Source: Paracoccaceae bacterium (GTDB lineage: Bacteria; Pseudomonadota; Alphaproteobacteria; Rhodobacterales; Rhodobacteraceae). Taken from it: a stretch of 22,029 nt of DNA. The translations under genes were made by a program, and so were the position numbers. The DNA lies in assembly GCA_002400675.1 (NCBI GenBank), contig NVQY01000005.1, forward strand, positions 10,016 through 32,044. Reading direction: 5' to 3'. Positions within the stretch are counted from its first letter, which is position 1. Each line of letters begins with the position of its first letter. Of this stretch, positions 9,016-17,459 are shown one piece after another. The notes under the pieces were generated by a model, which worked only from the letters and a program-made list of their open reading frames with translations, was not told the origin of the DNA and did not search any database.

Positions 9016-9051
9016 GTAACGCTGGGTTAACCTTTATTGGTCAAGGTTAAC
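9016..9051 (+). promoter_or_regulatory. CtrA box and inverted half-sites in ctrA promoter
   Basis: GTAA-N7-TTAAC (9016-9031) matches the CtrA consensus TTAA-N7-TTAAC with one mismatch. The second half-site is also the left arm of a perfect inverted repeat, GTTAACC (9026-9032) and GGTTAAC (9045-9051), separated by 12 nt. The element ends 36 nt before the ctrA ATG. It is the natural place for CtrA autoregulation and SciP restraint. The inverted TTAAC copy could be a second CtrA or SciP contact. Confidence 0.65.
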
Positions 9052-9087
9052 GCAAATGGGATCAAAGTAACGGCGGAGATAGAAAAA

Positions 9088-9810
9088 ATGCGTGTATTAC
9101 TGGTCGAGGATGACCCGACAACCTCAAAAAGCATTGAACTGATGCTGACCCATGCCAACCTGAACGTCTATGCGACGGATCTGGGGGAAGAAGGCATAGA
9201 TCTGGCCAAGCTCTATGATTACGATCTGATCCTGCTGGATCTGAACCTGCCGGACATGAATGGACACGAGGTGCTGCGACAGTTGCGACTGGCGCGCATT
9301 GAAACGCCTATTCTGATCCTGTCAGGGGCGGATGATACCGAAAGCAAGATCAAGGGATTTGGCTTTGGTGCCGATGATTACCTGACCAAACCGTTCCACC
9401 GTGAAGAACTGGTGGCACGTATTCATGCGATCATCCGCCGTTCAAAAGGTCATTCGCAATCGGTCATCCACACGGGCAAGATTGCCGTGAATCTGGATGC
9501 CAAGACGGTTGATGTGGACGGGTTGGCAGTGCATCTGACCGGCAAGGAATATCAGATGCTGGAATTGCTGAGCCTGCGCAAGGGCACGACCCTGACCAAG
9601 GAAATGTTCCTGAACCATCTGTATGGCGGCATGGATGAACCGGAACTTAAGATCATCGACGTGTTCATTTGCAAGCTGCGCAAGAAACTGAACACGGCGA
9701 CGGGCGGCGAAAACTACATCGAAACGGTGTGGGGACGTGGCTATGTGTTGCGTGAACCGCACCCGGATCATCTGGACAATGACACCCCCCGCATTGCCGT
9801 CGGGGCCTGA
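9088..9810 (+). CDS. ctrA: CtrA, cell-cycle response regulator
   Basis: CtrA is the OmpR-type response regulator that controls cell cycle, motility, gene-transfer agents and related traits in alphaproteobacteria. The 240-residue protein has a receiver domain with the acidic pair in VEDDP (Glu7, Asp8, Asp9), the phosphoacceptor Asp51 in LLDLNLPD, the SGADD switch and the conserved Lys in YLTKPF. The winged-helix DNA-binding domain is characteristic of Ctr[21 protein letters not shown] followed by [13 protein letters not shown] and the recognition helix ending CKLRKKL. The ATG at 9088 has GGAGA at 9-nt spacing; an in-frame TTG at 9037 would add 17 non-family residues. The C-terminal tail beyond YVLREP is short and charged. 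CtrA is normally phosphorylated by the CckA-ChpT pathway, which is not in this window. Confidence 0.97.
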
Positions 9811-9825
9811 CGCGGACGTTATCGA

Positions 9826-9857
9826 CCTGTGCCACAGGGGCTGACACAGCTTGTCAG
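9826..9857 (+). terminator. Two small hairpins after ctrA
   Basis: CCTGT/ACAGG with a 3-nt loop (9826-9838) and CTGACA/TGTCAG with a 5-nt loop (9841-9857) follow the ctrA stop closely and reach the stop codon of the convergent gene. There are no T-runs. They are candidates for the transcription end between two convergent genes, but weak ones. Confidence 0.35.
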
Positions 9858-11218
9858 ATCTGCGGCGCAGGGTTCAGGCTTTGCTGATGGCTTTCCAGAT
9901 CAAAGCCCAGTCGCGTTGTCAGTTGCACCAGATGCGCGGTGGTGCCGGCTTGGGTTTTCTGCAACAGGTTGGCGCGGTGAAACTCTACCGTTTTGGGGCT
10001 GATGCCCAGGTCCTCTGCAATCGCCTTTGAGCCATGGCCGTTACAGATCAGACACAGAACTTCGCGTTCCCGCCGGGTCAGGCTGTTGAACTTTGCCCGA
10101 ACCGCTTGGGTCTCTGCTGTGTCGGGCGCATCGCCCGGTGCGGTCCTGACCGGAATACGCCGCAAGATCAGTAACAGAGTTGCCCCGACAAACAGGCTTA
10201 GCAGGATACCAAGGGCAAACGCCGTCAGCACCGGGTTCTGCGACACCCACCCTACCGGAGATTTCGCGCCGCGTGGGCGGGCCTGAAAATCAGTCAGTAG
10301 TTGGCGAACACCTCCGTAAGACAATGGTGTTGACCATATGTCCAACAGCCCGAACTGCGCGCGAATTTGCGGGTTCTGGGTGTTCAGCAAGGCAAGGCTC
10401 ACATTTTCACGCAGAAGTTTGTCGATCCACGGCAGCGCCAGAAATGGCCACTCGGGGTACAGATGGCCGGTGACCAGATAGGGGTAGTCCGGTTGCGATT
10501 TGCTGTCGAGAACCTCGAAATCTGCGAGGTCAATGCGCCCTTCCGCCTGAAGTTTTTCCAGCAACCCACTGCGGATCACCCCCGCATCCATGTCGCCATT
10601 GAACACCGAGGTGACAATGGCATCCTGCGGAAAGCCCATGAAATGAATGGTGTCCAGATCGGTAAACGCATCAATCCCCTGACGGCGCAATTCGTCCCAC
10701 GCCACCTGAAACCCGCCAAAGGCCTCAGGGCTGACAGCGGCCAGACTTTTGCCTTTCAGATCGCCGATGGTGCGAATGCCCGACCCTTTTCGGGTGAAAA
10801 TGGCGGTGCCAAAGGTCAGCAGGCCGGGCGGTTCCCGGGACCCAAGCCGCTCGCGGGTGGCCAGCGCGCTTAGCGGGTGATCCTTGGCCAGCACCACGAA
10901 ATGACCGGGATTGGTGACCAGAAAATCTATCCGCTTGGCTTTGATCATCTCGGGTGCCGATACCAGAGTGATCGGCACGATCTCAAACGTCCAGCCCGGC
11001 ACCGATTGCGACAGGTATACCCCCAGATTGCGCCAGTTATCCTCGGCGGATTGCGCGCCGCGAAATGCCAGAACGCCGATGCGCGTGACCCTGTCAGCCC
11101 CTTGCGCCAAAGCGCCTAACGGCCAGTGCGCCAGCACGATCCAGACCAATATTCCCCAAATTCCGTGGCGCACCGATTTCCCCCATCGCAGCGAGTTGCC
11201 GCCCAACCTGATCTTCAT
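9854..11218 (-). CDS. TtrS/PhnD-type periplasmic sensor fused to LuxR-type DNA-binding domain
   Basis: This 454-residue protein appears to be a membrane-bound one-component regulator. A hydrophobic signal anchor or signal peptide (about 19-38, ending GALAQG) precedes a periplasmic PhnD-like substrate-binding domain (about 43-310). Its motifs resemble those I know from the tetrathionate sensor kinase TtrS: RIGVLAFRG (46-54), FLVTNPGHF (99-107), AFGGF (166-170), FMGFPQDA (193-200) and LYPEWPFLALP (253-263). A clear transmembrane helix follows (about 328-354, ending in ILRR). The C-terminus is a GerE/LuxR helix-turn-helix (about 378-440: LTRREREVLCL, then GISPKTVEFHRANLLQK). No histidine kinase, ATPase or receiver domain is visible between them. 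The start has AGGAT upstream. The gene follows the hydrolase gene by 38 nt and converges with ctrA. Ligand and targets are unknown. Confidence 0.85.
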   Translation of the reverse strand: MKIRLGGNSLRWGKSVRHGIWGILVWIVLAHWPLGALAQGADRVTRIGVLAFRGAQSAEDNWRNLGVYLSQSVPGWTFEIVPITLVSAPEMIKAKRIDFLVTNPGHFVVLAKDHPLSALATRERLGSREPPGLLTFGTAIFTRKGSGIRTIGDLKGKSLAAVSPEAFGGFQVAWDELRRQGIDAFTDLDTIHFMGFPQDAIVTSVFNGDMDAGVIRSGLLEKLQAEGRIDLADFEVLDSKSQPDYPYLVTGHLYPEWPFLALPWIDKLLRENVSLALLNTQNPQIRAQFGLLDIWSTPLSYGGVRQLLTDFQARPRGAKSPVGWVSQNPVLTAFALGILLSLFVGATLLLILRRIPVRTAPGDAPDTAETQAVRAKFNSLTRREREVLCLICNGHGSKAIAEDLGISPKTVEFHRANLLQKTQAGTTAHLVQLTTRLGFDLESHQQSLNPAPQI

Positions 11219-11256: not shown

Positions 11257-12474
11257 CTATTTGGTGTCCGGGACCAGCGCGGCGCGGATCGTGTCGATGG
11301 CGCGAAACGTATCCAGCGTGAATTGATAGATCAGATAATCCGGCCAGCTCGACAGTTTTACCACCATCAGATCACTGGCGCGGTCCACATAGATCAACTG
11401 CCCGAACACGCCGCGCGCGGCAATGTCGCCGCGGGCGTTGTCGCGTATCCACCAAAAATTCCGATAGGCCCCGTCCGGCGTCACGTCAGTGTAGGGCGCG
11501 CCGAATTTCTCGGCCTCGCCCCGCCCGGTGCCGGCGATCCAGCTGTGCGGCACCACGCCCGATTTCGGCTCAAGAAACAACCGGCCAAACCGCGCGTAGT
11601 CGCGCAAAGTCGCGTTGAAACCGCCATCGGCAAGGGCGGTTCCGGCGCGATCAATGGTAAAGAACCCGTCGCGCTGTGCCCCCATCGGTTGCCAGATTTC
11701 CCGGCTCACCAGTTCGGCTAGCGGCGTGCCCGTCACCCGTTCCAGCACCCATGCGGCCACATCGGTTTCGATTGAGCGGTATTCAAATTGCTGCCCGTGC
11801 GGGCGCTGTTTGGGCAGGGTCAGGATCACATCGCGGATCGACTGATAGGGGGCCCCCGGCGCGGCAGGCCGCCAGCCCGCGGCCACGTCAATCCGGGTCA
11901 TGTCCGACTCCGGGGCACCATAGTCTTCGACAAACCGAACCCCCGACTGCATGTTCAGCACATGGGTCAGAGTGGCATCACCGTACCCGCACGCCGCCAG
12001 TTCCGGCACATAGACCTGCATTGGCGCGTCAAGATCGACGATTCCGCGCCCGTTCAGGATGCCCGCCACCGCGCCGACAACCGACTTGGCCACCGATTGC
12101 GACAGATGCGGGGTTTCAGGGGCCATGTCATTATAATAGCTTTCGTGGCGGATTTTTCCGCCCTGATAGACCAACAACGCATCTGTATAAGTCTCGTCCA
12201 GAAACTGCGCGATGGTGCGGTTTTCCCCGGCGGTGTTGGTGAAATTCAGCTCAAGCAGCGCCACCTCGTCCGTATCAAACGCGGAAACCGGCCCGGTGCC
12301 GCGATACACATCCACCGTGGGAAACAAAGAGCGCATGTTCTGAAACGACCAGCGATTAAAGGGGGGTAAATCCCAATTATCGCCACTGGGCTGCTTTTCC
12401 GGTGGCGGTGGAAACCCGGCCATGATGCCCAGTTCGCGCGCGGTCTTTGGGCGGATGTGATTCCAGGTTTTCAT
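11257..12474 (-). CDS. Beta-lactamase-fold serine hydrolase (NylB-like)
   Basis: This protein of 405 residues belongs to the serine beta-lactamase/penicillin-binding fold, class C-related type, and resembles 6-aminohexanoate-oligomer hydrolase (NylB) and esterases. The catalytic SxxK motif is SVAK (127-130) in LSQSVAKSVVG. The second motif is FEYRSIETD, with the likely general-base Tyr at about 232. GARGVFGQ near 352-359 occupies the position of the third motif. No signal peptide is visible, so it is likely cytosolic, unlike true beta-lactamases. The ATG at 12474 is chosen over an in-frame TTG at 12486; both have weak ribosome binding sites. It lies downstream of the pot genes, separated by a hairpin, and 38 nt before the sensor-LuxR gene. 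An amidase or esterase acting on an imported compound is plausible but unproven. Confidence 0.8.
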   Translation of the reverse strand: MKTWNHIRPKTARELGIMAGFPPPPEKQPSGDNWDLPPFNRWSFQNMRSLFPTVDVYRGTGPVSAFDTDEVALLELNFTNTAGENRTIAQFLDETYTDALLVYQGGKIRHESYYNDMAPETPHLSQSVAKSVVGAVAGILNGRGIVDLDAPMQVYVPELAACGYGDATLTHVLNMQSGVRFVEDYGAPESDMTRIDVAAGWRPAAPGAPYQSIRDVILTLPKQRPHGQQFEYRSIETDVAAWVLERVTGTPLAELVSREIWQPMGAQRDGFFTIDRAGTALADGGFNATLRDYARFGRLFLEPKSGVVPHSWIAGTGRGEAEKFGAPYTDVTPDGAYRNFWWIRDNARGDIAARGVFGQLIYVDRASDLMVVKLSSWPDYLIYQFTLDTFRAIDTIRAALVPDTK

Positions 12475-12501
12475 GGGTTTATCCAAAAGTTCGAAAGGAA
12501 T

Positions 12502-16523: not shown

Positions 16524-17315
16524 TCAGACGTGGGTGCCGTTGAAAAACGCATGAAACAATTCGCCCTGAGACGAGATTTGCAGCTTACGAAACAGGTTCT
16601 TGCGATGGGTTTTCACCGTGCCAACCGAGGTTTCAGTGCGCGCCGCGATAGAGCGCGACGAATGACCCTTGAGGATCAGATTGGCAATTTCCTGTTCGCG
16701 CGGGGTCAGCACGCCCTGGCCAAATTGCGCCAGCGCGGAATCAATGCTGTGGCCGGTGCCCTGATCGGGATCGCTGCGCAAGGCACGGTTGAAATGTTGT
16801 TTGTTCAGGGCCGCGAACACCGGCAAAAGCGTGTGAAATGCGGCGATTTCCGGCTTGGAAAAGCGGCGTTCGTCGTGGCGACGTCCCAGCGAATAGAACA
16901 GGGTGCTTTTGGTCGAAAGTTGGACAAAGATGCCGATTTCATCCTGTAAATTCAAGCCATTATAGTAGACTTTGAAATAGGTAGAGCTGTGAAATCGGTC
17001 CGGGGAAACCTCGTTCAGTGTGGCAATCCGACTGCTTGGGTCCTTGAGGTAGCTGTCAAAAAACGGGTCCAGCAGGTAAGATCGGTCAAGGTAGGTATCC
17101 ACGACGTCATAGCGCCGGTCAGATTGCACATTGTCGTAGACGTGGCGCGGCGGTTTGCGCCCGCGCAGCTCGGACACGAACACCCCCTTGAACCACACGG
17201 ACGCGCGCAGATAATCGGTGGCGCAAGCGATGAAATCCGAGGTGCCAATGGCCAGAATCGCCCGTTCAAGGGCGTCGGTGGCAACCTGCTGATGGGTGGG
17301 TTTCTTACGAGTCAT
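16524..17315 (-). CDS. LuxR-type transcriptional regulator beside polyamine transporter
   Basis: This protein (263 residues from the chosen ATG) carries a C-terminal GerE/LuxR helix-turn-helix (about 200-255): LTPREQEIANLILKGHSSR, then TSVGTVKTHRKNLFRKLQ. The N-terminal 190 residues contain no receiver Asp motif that I recognise. Their aromatic-rich pattern (SSTYFKVYYNG, LLDPFFDSYL) resembles ligand-sensing domains of solo LuxR-type regulators without matching a named one. No autoinducer synthase is nearby. It lies upstream of the pot genes on the same strand, so control of the transporter is the obvious hypothesis. An upstream ATG at 17360 is possible, since neither start has a convincing ribosome binding site. 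Confidence 0.78.
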   Translation of the reverse strand: MTRKKPTHQQVATDALERAILAIGTSDFIACATDYLRASVWFKGVFVSELRGRKPPRHVYDNVQSDRRYDVVDTYLDRSYLLDPFFDSYLKDPSSRIATLNEVSPDRFHSSTYFKVYYNGLNLQDEIGIFVQLSTKSTLFYSLGRRHDERRFSKPEIAAFHTLLPVFAALNKQHFNRALRSDPDQGTGHSIDSALAQFGQGVLTPREQEIANLILKGHSSRSIAARTETSVGTVKTHRKNLFRKLQISSQGELFHAFFNGTHV

Positions 17316-17459
17316 ATGTGGCCGGACGTGAACGGGATTGGCGCAGAGTTTGCACCTCATTCCGGCTTTTGACCAGAGCGCATTTTATCGCGGTTTTTCT
17401 TGCCAAGCGGTCTTGTCGCTGTCTATCAAAGGCGAATCACCACTGGGAGTACATGAAAG

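Follow-up and report, generated by a model that had tools for sequence, protein, structure and literature searches.

The sensor gene and its surroundings

Within the window, by which we mean the whole 22,029-nucleotide stretch of DNA analyzed here, the gene of interest is an ATG-initiated open reading frame on the minus strand (9854..11218) that encodes 454 amino acids and has no internal stops. The features of the locus are as follows:

9037..9810, plus strand: convergent OmpR-type response regulator (receiver + Trans_reg_C), in the place held by the partner gene in relatives
9854..11218, minus strand: one-component membrane regulator, 454 aa (PhnD/TtrS-like sensor, transmembrane [TM] helix, FixJ/LuxR-type helix-turn-helix [HTH]), from the reading frame, Pfam, NCBIfam, homologues, and a structural model
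9923..10084, minus strand: GerE/LuxR HTH, residues 379-432, with FixJ as both best-matching model and best-matching solved structure (Pfam, NCBIfam, structure match)
10085..10162, minus strand: linker, residues 353-378, partly low-confidence in the model, no domain found (Pfam and model)
10163..10234, minus strand: single predicted TM helix, residues 329-352 (model and hydropathy)
10283..11092, minus strand: periplasmic binding-protein domain, residues 43-312 (Pfam, model, comparison)
11105..11218, minus strand: presumed signal peptide, residues 1-38, ending GALA before Q, with Ala38 in 36/40 (model and alignment)
11257..12486, minus strand: serine hydrolase (PF00144), 38 nt upstream of the sensor gene and outside the conserved system

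The serine hydrolase and sensor genes are possibly one transcript. The response regulator is one we take to be CtrA-like. Elsewhere in the window, a second LuxR-type regulator (16524-17360, minus strand; GerE at residues 217-270, no Pfam match in the N-terminal part) adjoins the ABC transporter genes, which we presume to be of polyamine type, and two similar porin-like genes (by eye) lie in tandem on the plus strand at 279-1412 and 1568-2734.

Domain architecture and topology

An earlier note on this DNA had proposed a TtrS-like periplasmic sensor joined directly to a LuxR-type HTH, and the domain analysis agrees. Pfam places Phosphonate-bd (PF12974) at residues 47-282 (E 2e-34, above the curated cut-off) and GerE (PF00196) at residues 379-432 (E 2e-17; 63 bits against a curated cut-off of 23.5), with Sigma70_r4_2 also above its cut-off on the same HTH. 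The motifs claimed for the N-terminal domain (FLVTNPG, AFGGF, GFPQDA) are all present, as is LYPEWPFLALP in full. Residues 283-370 have no Pfam match, and no kinase, receiver, or Response_reg domain was found there; the Pfam and model results thus bear out the claim that no kinase, ATPase, or receiver separates sensor and HTH. The N-terminal winged helix Trans_reg_C likewise has no Pfam match in the protein, whose HTH is the C-terminal GerE. The NCBIfam TtrS kinase model NF040750 aligns with the sensor section only (model positions 8-300 with residues 46-345), scoring 178.6 bits, below its cut-off of 750; HisKA and HATPase_c are absent.

The AlphaFold2 model (mean pLDDT 86.8) has a binding-protein fold at residues 43-312, a TM helix at 329-352, a stretch with pLDDT <50 at 355-364, and HTH helices at 368-437. 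Among solved structures, FixJ (1x3u, E 1.3e-18) is the best match to the HTH. Hydropathy supports the TM helix in this protein and in 40/40 aligned homologues, close to where it had been placed (about 328-354). A kinase or receiver hidden in the linker was considered and rejected, since neither Pfam nor the model has one at 355-378. Membrane attachment had been described as an N-terminal signal anchor plus the TM helix. The single TM helix before the HTH stands, but the N-terminus has the look of a signal peptide that is cleaved off, not of an anchor: the presumed -1 position (residue 38) is Ala in 36/40 aligned sequences. Therefore, the mature protein is probably single-pass, N-out/C-in. The predicted architecture is sensor-TM-HTH in one chain, with sensor and HTH on opposite sides of one TM helix.

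A family of fused sensors

Of 8000 candidates scored in a protein search, 409 were hits at E<=1e-3, and both Pfam domains (sensor and GerE) occur in 120/120 of the homologues among the matches listed, which therefore excludes a chance join. From a species-genome scan, the best 80 of 248 confirmed loci were kept. By HMM, a single reading frame encodes both sensor and HTH at 57 of the 58 best genome loci (L034-L091), all recorded as Alphaproteobacteria. L037 (357-1718) is a split member, with sensor and HTH in two adjacent frames and with palindrome and partner (see below) present. L097 and L098, one sequence under two names, have both sensor and HTH; apparently a single contig was assigned both to a Flavobacteriia MAG and to a Roseobacter MAG, so that a record is likely mislabelled. 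The remaining 20 loci lack the HTH in the sensor reading frame; most are kinase-length and some are cut by contig ends.

Among 394 genomes of the window's family, 24 have a sensor hit at 1e-30 and 13 of these are of the fused architecture. Another of the 24, G291, carries a variant with ~200 extra residues ahead of the HTH (L150:1289-3172, minus strand): its 627 amino acids comprise the sensor, the ~200 residues (no Pfam match), and the HTH, c5 (see below) lies downstream, and it clusters with kinases in the sensor tree.

The fused sensor-HTH regulator is real and widespread. Some sources annotate homologues as "sensor histidine kinase TtrS", a name that needs correcting for the member in the window, in which no kinase domain was found. 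We found no description of a fused TtrS-type sensor and LuxR-type HTH in those parts of the open-licence PMC literature that were accessible, and this one-component variant of TtrS/TtrR-type signalling is apparently undescribed. The gene had been called the window's best candidate for an undescribed system; this holds insofar as no characterised case was found in open-licence PMC, but it is a recurrent family with conserved downstream genes rather than a peculiarity of the window.

Conserved downstream partners

Clustering of the reading frames around the sensors yielded three recurrent families, c0, c6, and c5, lying 3' of the sensor on the same strand. Families c0 and c6 are secreted DsrE-like proteins (PF02635 over cut-off in the first-tested member of each), and c5 is a secreted SBP_bac_11 solute-binding protein with a CxxC motif. 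By HMM, a partner of either kind (PF02635 or SBP_bac_11) lies within ~410 nt downstream on the same strand in 54/58 loci L034-L091, or 55/58 with L039. As for the others, the L052 contig ends 436 nt past the sensor gene and holds neither partner nor site; L082 is a true miss, lacking partner and palindrome; and L063 is a true miss for the partner, yet has the palindrome. L147 also lacks a partner, and its best site scores 9.4 bits.

DsrE carriers work through a single cysteine. A cysteine is conserved in c0 (37/37) and c6 (11/11), and the CxxC in c5 (12/12). Because DsrE3A of Metallosphaera reacts with tetrathionate, according to the part of that report available to us (PMC4175335), a polythionate link of the DsrE-like partners is by analogy plausible, no more. 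No sensor hit at 1e-30 occurs in 17 of the 26 genomes with c0 or in 3 of the 6 with c5; therefore, the partners also occur in sensor-free genomes.

A palindrome at the sensor-partner junction

A 20-bp palindrome, ACCTAGGG-n4-CCCTAGGT, recurs around the junction of sensor and partner genes. It was obtained by palindrome-constrained expectation maximization (EM) on 54 regions, each starting 77 nt before the end of the sensor gene and reaching the start of the partner, with the window genome left out. The real set scored 507.6 (80 starts); five shuffled sets, with 15 starts apiece, scored 47-58. The best site reaches >=9 bits in 52/54 regions (~0.02 expected per region) and >=20 bits in 35; two loci, L059 and L088, have the partner and no site, and a number of the 52, L055, L072, and L078 among them, have a site that is weak or out of place. 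In 40/52 regions the palindrome is 95-135 nt ahead of the partner start. When only intergenic DNA was used, the palindrome came out weaker (score 175.3 at width 20; 40-49 in five shuffles) because the main site often overlaps the 3' end of the sensor gene. An unconstrained motif search was set aside, its main result being an apparent ribosome-binding site.

The position relative to the sensor stop varies: the palindrome is inside the coding end in 17/52 regions, where it can encode D-L-G-F-S-L-G-like residues, across the stop in 17/52, where its TAG serves as the stop codon, and beyond the stop in 18/52. Its place at or past the stop in 35 of the 52, and 11 nt past an upstream gene's stop on the predicted target contig of the window genome (see below), would suit a transcription terminator or RNA hairpin 3' of the sensor gene in place of an operator. 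We consider this highly improbable: the letters are conserved beyond pairing, 17 sites are within coding sequence, some loci have a second, weaker site 33-35 bp on (7 spacings), and the sensor-free partner loci examined lack the palindrome.

These sensor-free controls came from 9/17 sensor-free c0 genomes and 3/3 sensor-free c5 genomes. Ahead of the gene, no site reaches 9 bits in any of the nine c0 loci or in the two c5 loci with an intact gene; the two hits found in control loci (9.4 and 9.7 bits) lie to either side of the gene, ~1.5 kb upstream in one case and ~0.5 kb downstream in the other. In the other c5 genome, G194, c5 is broken, a 22.7-bit palindrome is kept (L225:3524-3543), and a remnant of a sensor HTH lies just upstream (C64:25283-25539), as if sensor and target had decayed together.

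Within 932 kb of 58 loci there are 40 sites of >=20 bits, and 40/40 lie from -100 to +450 nt of the sensor stop; this clustering shows specificity, not independent recovery, because most of the sites were training data. Two sites held out of training score 30.7 bits (window genome) and 23.1 bits (L063). A core with 0 mismatches occurs in 5/394 family genomes, all five with the sensor, although four of them are training loci.

Could another FixJ/TtrR-type response regulator bind the palindrome, with the membrane protein acting only as a ligand-dependent modulator or decoy? A match, GGCTAGGGTAAACCCTAGGT, lies 16 nt past the stop of a FixJ-like regulator and ahead of a 223-aa gene that is CRP/FNR-like by eye (L196:5097-5116), in genome G151, where no sensor hit was found at 1e-30. 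A published FixJ site, TAAGTAATTTCCCTTA, is also similar, as far as the excerpt of that paper goes (PMC4999443). Given these two resemblances, sites of this type may be a property of the FixJ/TtrR output family at large. As an account of the palindrome, another regulator is very unlikely, given that the sensor occurs in each of the five family genomes with a perfect core and that the sensor-free partner loci examined have no site, save the decayed one. Altogether, the palindrome is a strongly predicted site for the fused regulator and the partner genes are its predicted targets. The earlier note had left the targets unknown; neighbours and palindrome now point to the DsrE-like and solute-binding genes.

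An unlinked predicted target in the window genome

In the window itself, partner gene and palindrome are absent, and the gene next to the sensor is the convergent response regulator, the only neighbour within 7 kb that falls in a cluster common to at least three loci. The C-terminal end of the sensor protein has no D-L-G-F-S-L-G stretch. The best site in the window scores 6.9 bits, with 0 matches at up to 3 mismatches, and none was found at the 5' or 3' end of the sensor gene. Autoregulation was rejected, there being no site near the 5' end.

Another contig of the same assembly, C206, carries c5 (77% identical to that of L034) followed by c6 (PF02635 score 20.1, below the cut-off of 22.7), with ACCTAGGGTTTTCCCTAGGT ahead of c5. 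This is a perfect palindrome and the sole match with fewer than 3 mismatches in the 2.88 Mb of the (incomplete) assembly, which has six places at <=3 mismatches (five of them with 3), compared to five for a reversed control. The search pattern was this genome's own, already known site; EM without it gave the same consensus. A second site 34 bp on scores 19.1 by the intergenic matrix and 6.3 by the final matrix. The tetranucleotide make-up of C206 fits the window (0.966, vs 0.964-0.974 for other contigs of the bin), which is weak support for its belonging to the bin because a contig from another species of the genus reaches 0.954 and binning itself uses make-up. As the sensor gene is unlinked and without a site of its own, the sensor-target link in this organism depends on a single site, and the MAG is 67.6% complete.

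On C206, the predicted target operon (L157:4441-8533) is flanked on one side by a cytochrome b561-YceI fusion gene and on the other by an SBP_bac_6 binding-protein gene, with ABC transporter genes after the latter. A further contig, C80 (L158:62-13204), appears by eye to contain a complete reverse-type dsr operon, in which Pfam recognizes two DsrE-family genes; sulfur oxidation is therefore a probable trait of the organism. The three other genomes of the genus yielded no c5 and no complete sensor; in one genome of the genus (G001), the first ~110 sensor residues stand at a contig end. In a locus of the same genus (L152:33-2179), integrase-like and transposase-like genes (by eye) lie upstream of the cut sensor gene.

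The window sensor could instead be an orphan, repurposed or decaying, that no longer regulates the SBP/DsrE-like pair and perhaps acts on the polyamine-type ABC or serine hydrolase genes upstream. Such a reading draws on the lack of a linked partner and 3' palindrome, and on the position of the gene 38 nt past the serine hydrolase gene and near ABC transporter genes. It is unlikely, in that the frame is intact and all residues invariant in the alignment are kept, the window offers no palindrome to such a regulator, and the unlinked pair on C206 keeps a perfect site.

Ligand

The arginine R216 is invariant in 65/65 one-component and 30/30 kinase-length sensors and is absent from three aligned PtxB-type phosphite/phosphonate-binding chains. 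In phosphonate/phosphite-binding proteins, the His of a G-x-H-D loop takes part in ligand binding; PhnD and AioX illustrate its role in the available part of PMC5908839. GFPQDA aligns with GSHDA/GTHDA/GAHDA of the three PtxB-type chains, their His being replaced by Pro-Gln in the sensor family. Because R216 is invariant and the His of the phosphite proteins is replaced, the comparison favours a TtrS-like anion over a phosphonate.

Of the ligands proposed earlier (sulfur oxyanion, phosphonate, or amine), phosphonate is thus weakened, and an amine has behind it only the upstream polyamine-type ABC genes. A role as a phosphonate transporter component was rejected, the neighbouring ABC genes being of another type by eye and the phosphite-protein His missing. 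The most likely ligand, judged by residue comparison and context, would be a small anion, namely a sulfur oxyanion such as polythionate or thiosulfate; the context comprises the TtrS-like sensor, the DsrE-like partners, and the apparent reverse-type dsr operon. For Alphaproteobacteria, the result is a candidate regulator responding to a sulfur compound, together with a candidate regulon of genes for DsrE-like and CxxC binding proteins, both secreted.

Proposed mechanism

We think it quite probable that the protein is a one-component membrane counterpart of TtrS/TtrR. Its outer Venus-flytrap domain would bind a small anion, presumably a sulfur oxyanion, and binding would alter how the TM helices pair or are oriented. 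Two cytoplasmic FixJ-type HTHs might then occupy ACCTAGGG-n4-CCCTAGGT while still held at the membrane, with the palindrome-marked genes for the secreted DsrE-like and/or CxxC solute-binding protein, recognized by comparing palindrome placement, as predicted targets. In the window organism, the sensor would act apart from its targets, which lie on another contig with the perfect palindrome. Membrane-tethered DNA binding, the ligand class, and the sign of regulation are what we infer.

Release from the membrane offers a different route: ligand binding would set off regulated intramembrane proteolysis of a precursor protein, and the cytoplasmic HTH fragment so liberated would reach its targets by diffusion. 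The distance from TM window to HTH varies from 18 to 47 residues in the 40-sequence alignment, with low model confidence in the linker, and in the window genome the target is unlinked, both of which would suit a diffusible fragment. By eye, however, the stretch from TM to HTH shows no cleavage motif conserved across the alignment, and the tight sensor-target linkage in most loci would better fit a tethered regulator. We therefore regard proteolytic release as rather improbable.

Two-component relatives and evolution

Among the 20 loci without the HTH in the sensor frame, L111 has HisKA and HATPase_c by Pfam, and the TtrS kinase model aligns along almost its full length with L095, L096, and L111, although with scores below its cut-off. 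A TtrR-like gene is next in 13 of the 20, followed by c5 in three and by c0 in three (6/20). The exact core TAGGG-n4-CCCTA occurs in 4/21 two-component loci (L095, L103, L111, L151), at or within ~140 nt past the TtrR-like gene; it is absent from the other 17, with near matches in L105 and L110.

The sensor tree unites 61 one-component rows in a clade (SH-aLRT 97; with L147, 62 rows and SH-aLRT 90), the split L037 being labelled one-component by hand. The window protein is sister to that of Thioclava atlantica (97). L150 falls among kinases beside L093 and L105 (93, below the 95 mark), and L148 and L149 sit near an unreliable root with a very long outgroup branch. The HTH tree shows no origin, and the mean identity of the HTH is 41.1% to TtrR-like proteins vs 39.8% to other LuxR proteins, the latter including the split member L037. 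These placements suggest that more than one sensor-HTH join event is likely.

A broader reading is that one regulon is served by both a phosphorelay and a one-protein switch, the two sharing an ancestor. TtrS/TtrR-type systems would have become one membrane protein more than once (the main clade and the L150 form), keeping operator type and targets, so that in Roseobacter relatives and other Alphaproteobacteria a sulfur-oxyanion signal might cross the membrane without phosphorylation and control a secreted DsrE-type sulfur carrier. We put this forward tentatively, as possible but somewhat short of an even chance. The two- and one-component forms make a natural pair; since sensor class and downstream genes are the same and the sites are similar, replacement of a phosphorelay by a one-component regulator becomes testable through swaps within such pairs.

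Comparison with known systems

The closest known systems are TtrS/TtrR and ThsS/ThsR, which respond to tetrathionate and thiosulfate and share with the window protein a PhnD-like periplasmic sensor and a LuxR/FixJ-type output. The window protein differs in having no HisKA, HATPase, or receiver, in being one polypeptide, and in its family's downstream genes. The ThsR operator is a FixJ-like inverted repeat and TtrR operator mapping was inconclusive, both according to the accessible portion of one paper (PMC5408782). AioX and ArrX, oxyanion-sensing binding proteins, differ in being separate proteins that act on a histidine kinase (PMC5908839, in part).

In the main text of a survey of transmembrane regulators (PMC10269533), LuxR, GerE, and phosphonate were not found. 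DadR-type LuxR regulators of Eggerthella lenta, an actinobacterium, resemble the window protein in having a membrane-spanning N-terminal part and a C-terminal LuxR HTH; they differ in having 10-12 TM helices and, in the portion of the report consulted, no described binding-protein domain (PMC9734109). FixJ response regulators share the HTH (1x3u being the best match) and, from the excerpt cited above, a similar site (PMC4999443), and have a receiver domain where the window protein has a fused membrane sensor. ToxR, TcpP, and CadC are likewise one-component proteins in which, as predicted for the window protein, one TM helix separates the HTH from the sensor. Their winged helix is N-terminal, that is, domain order and topology are opposite to those predicted here.
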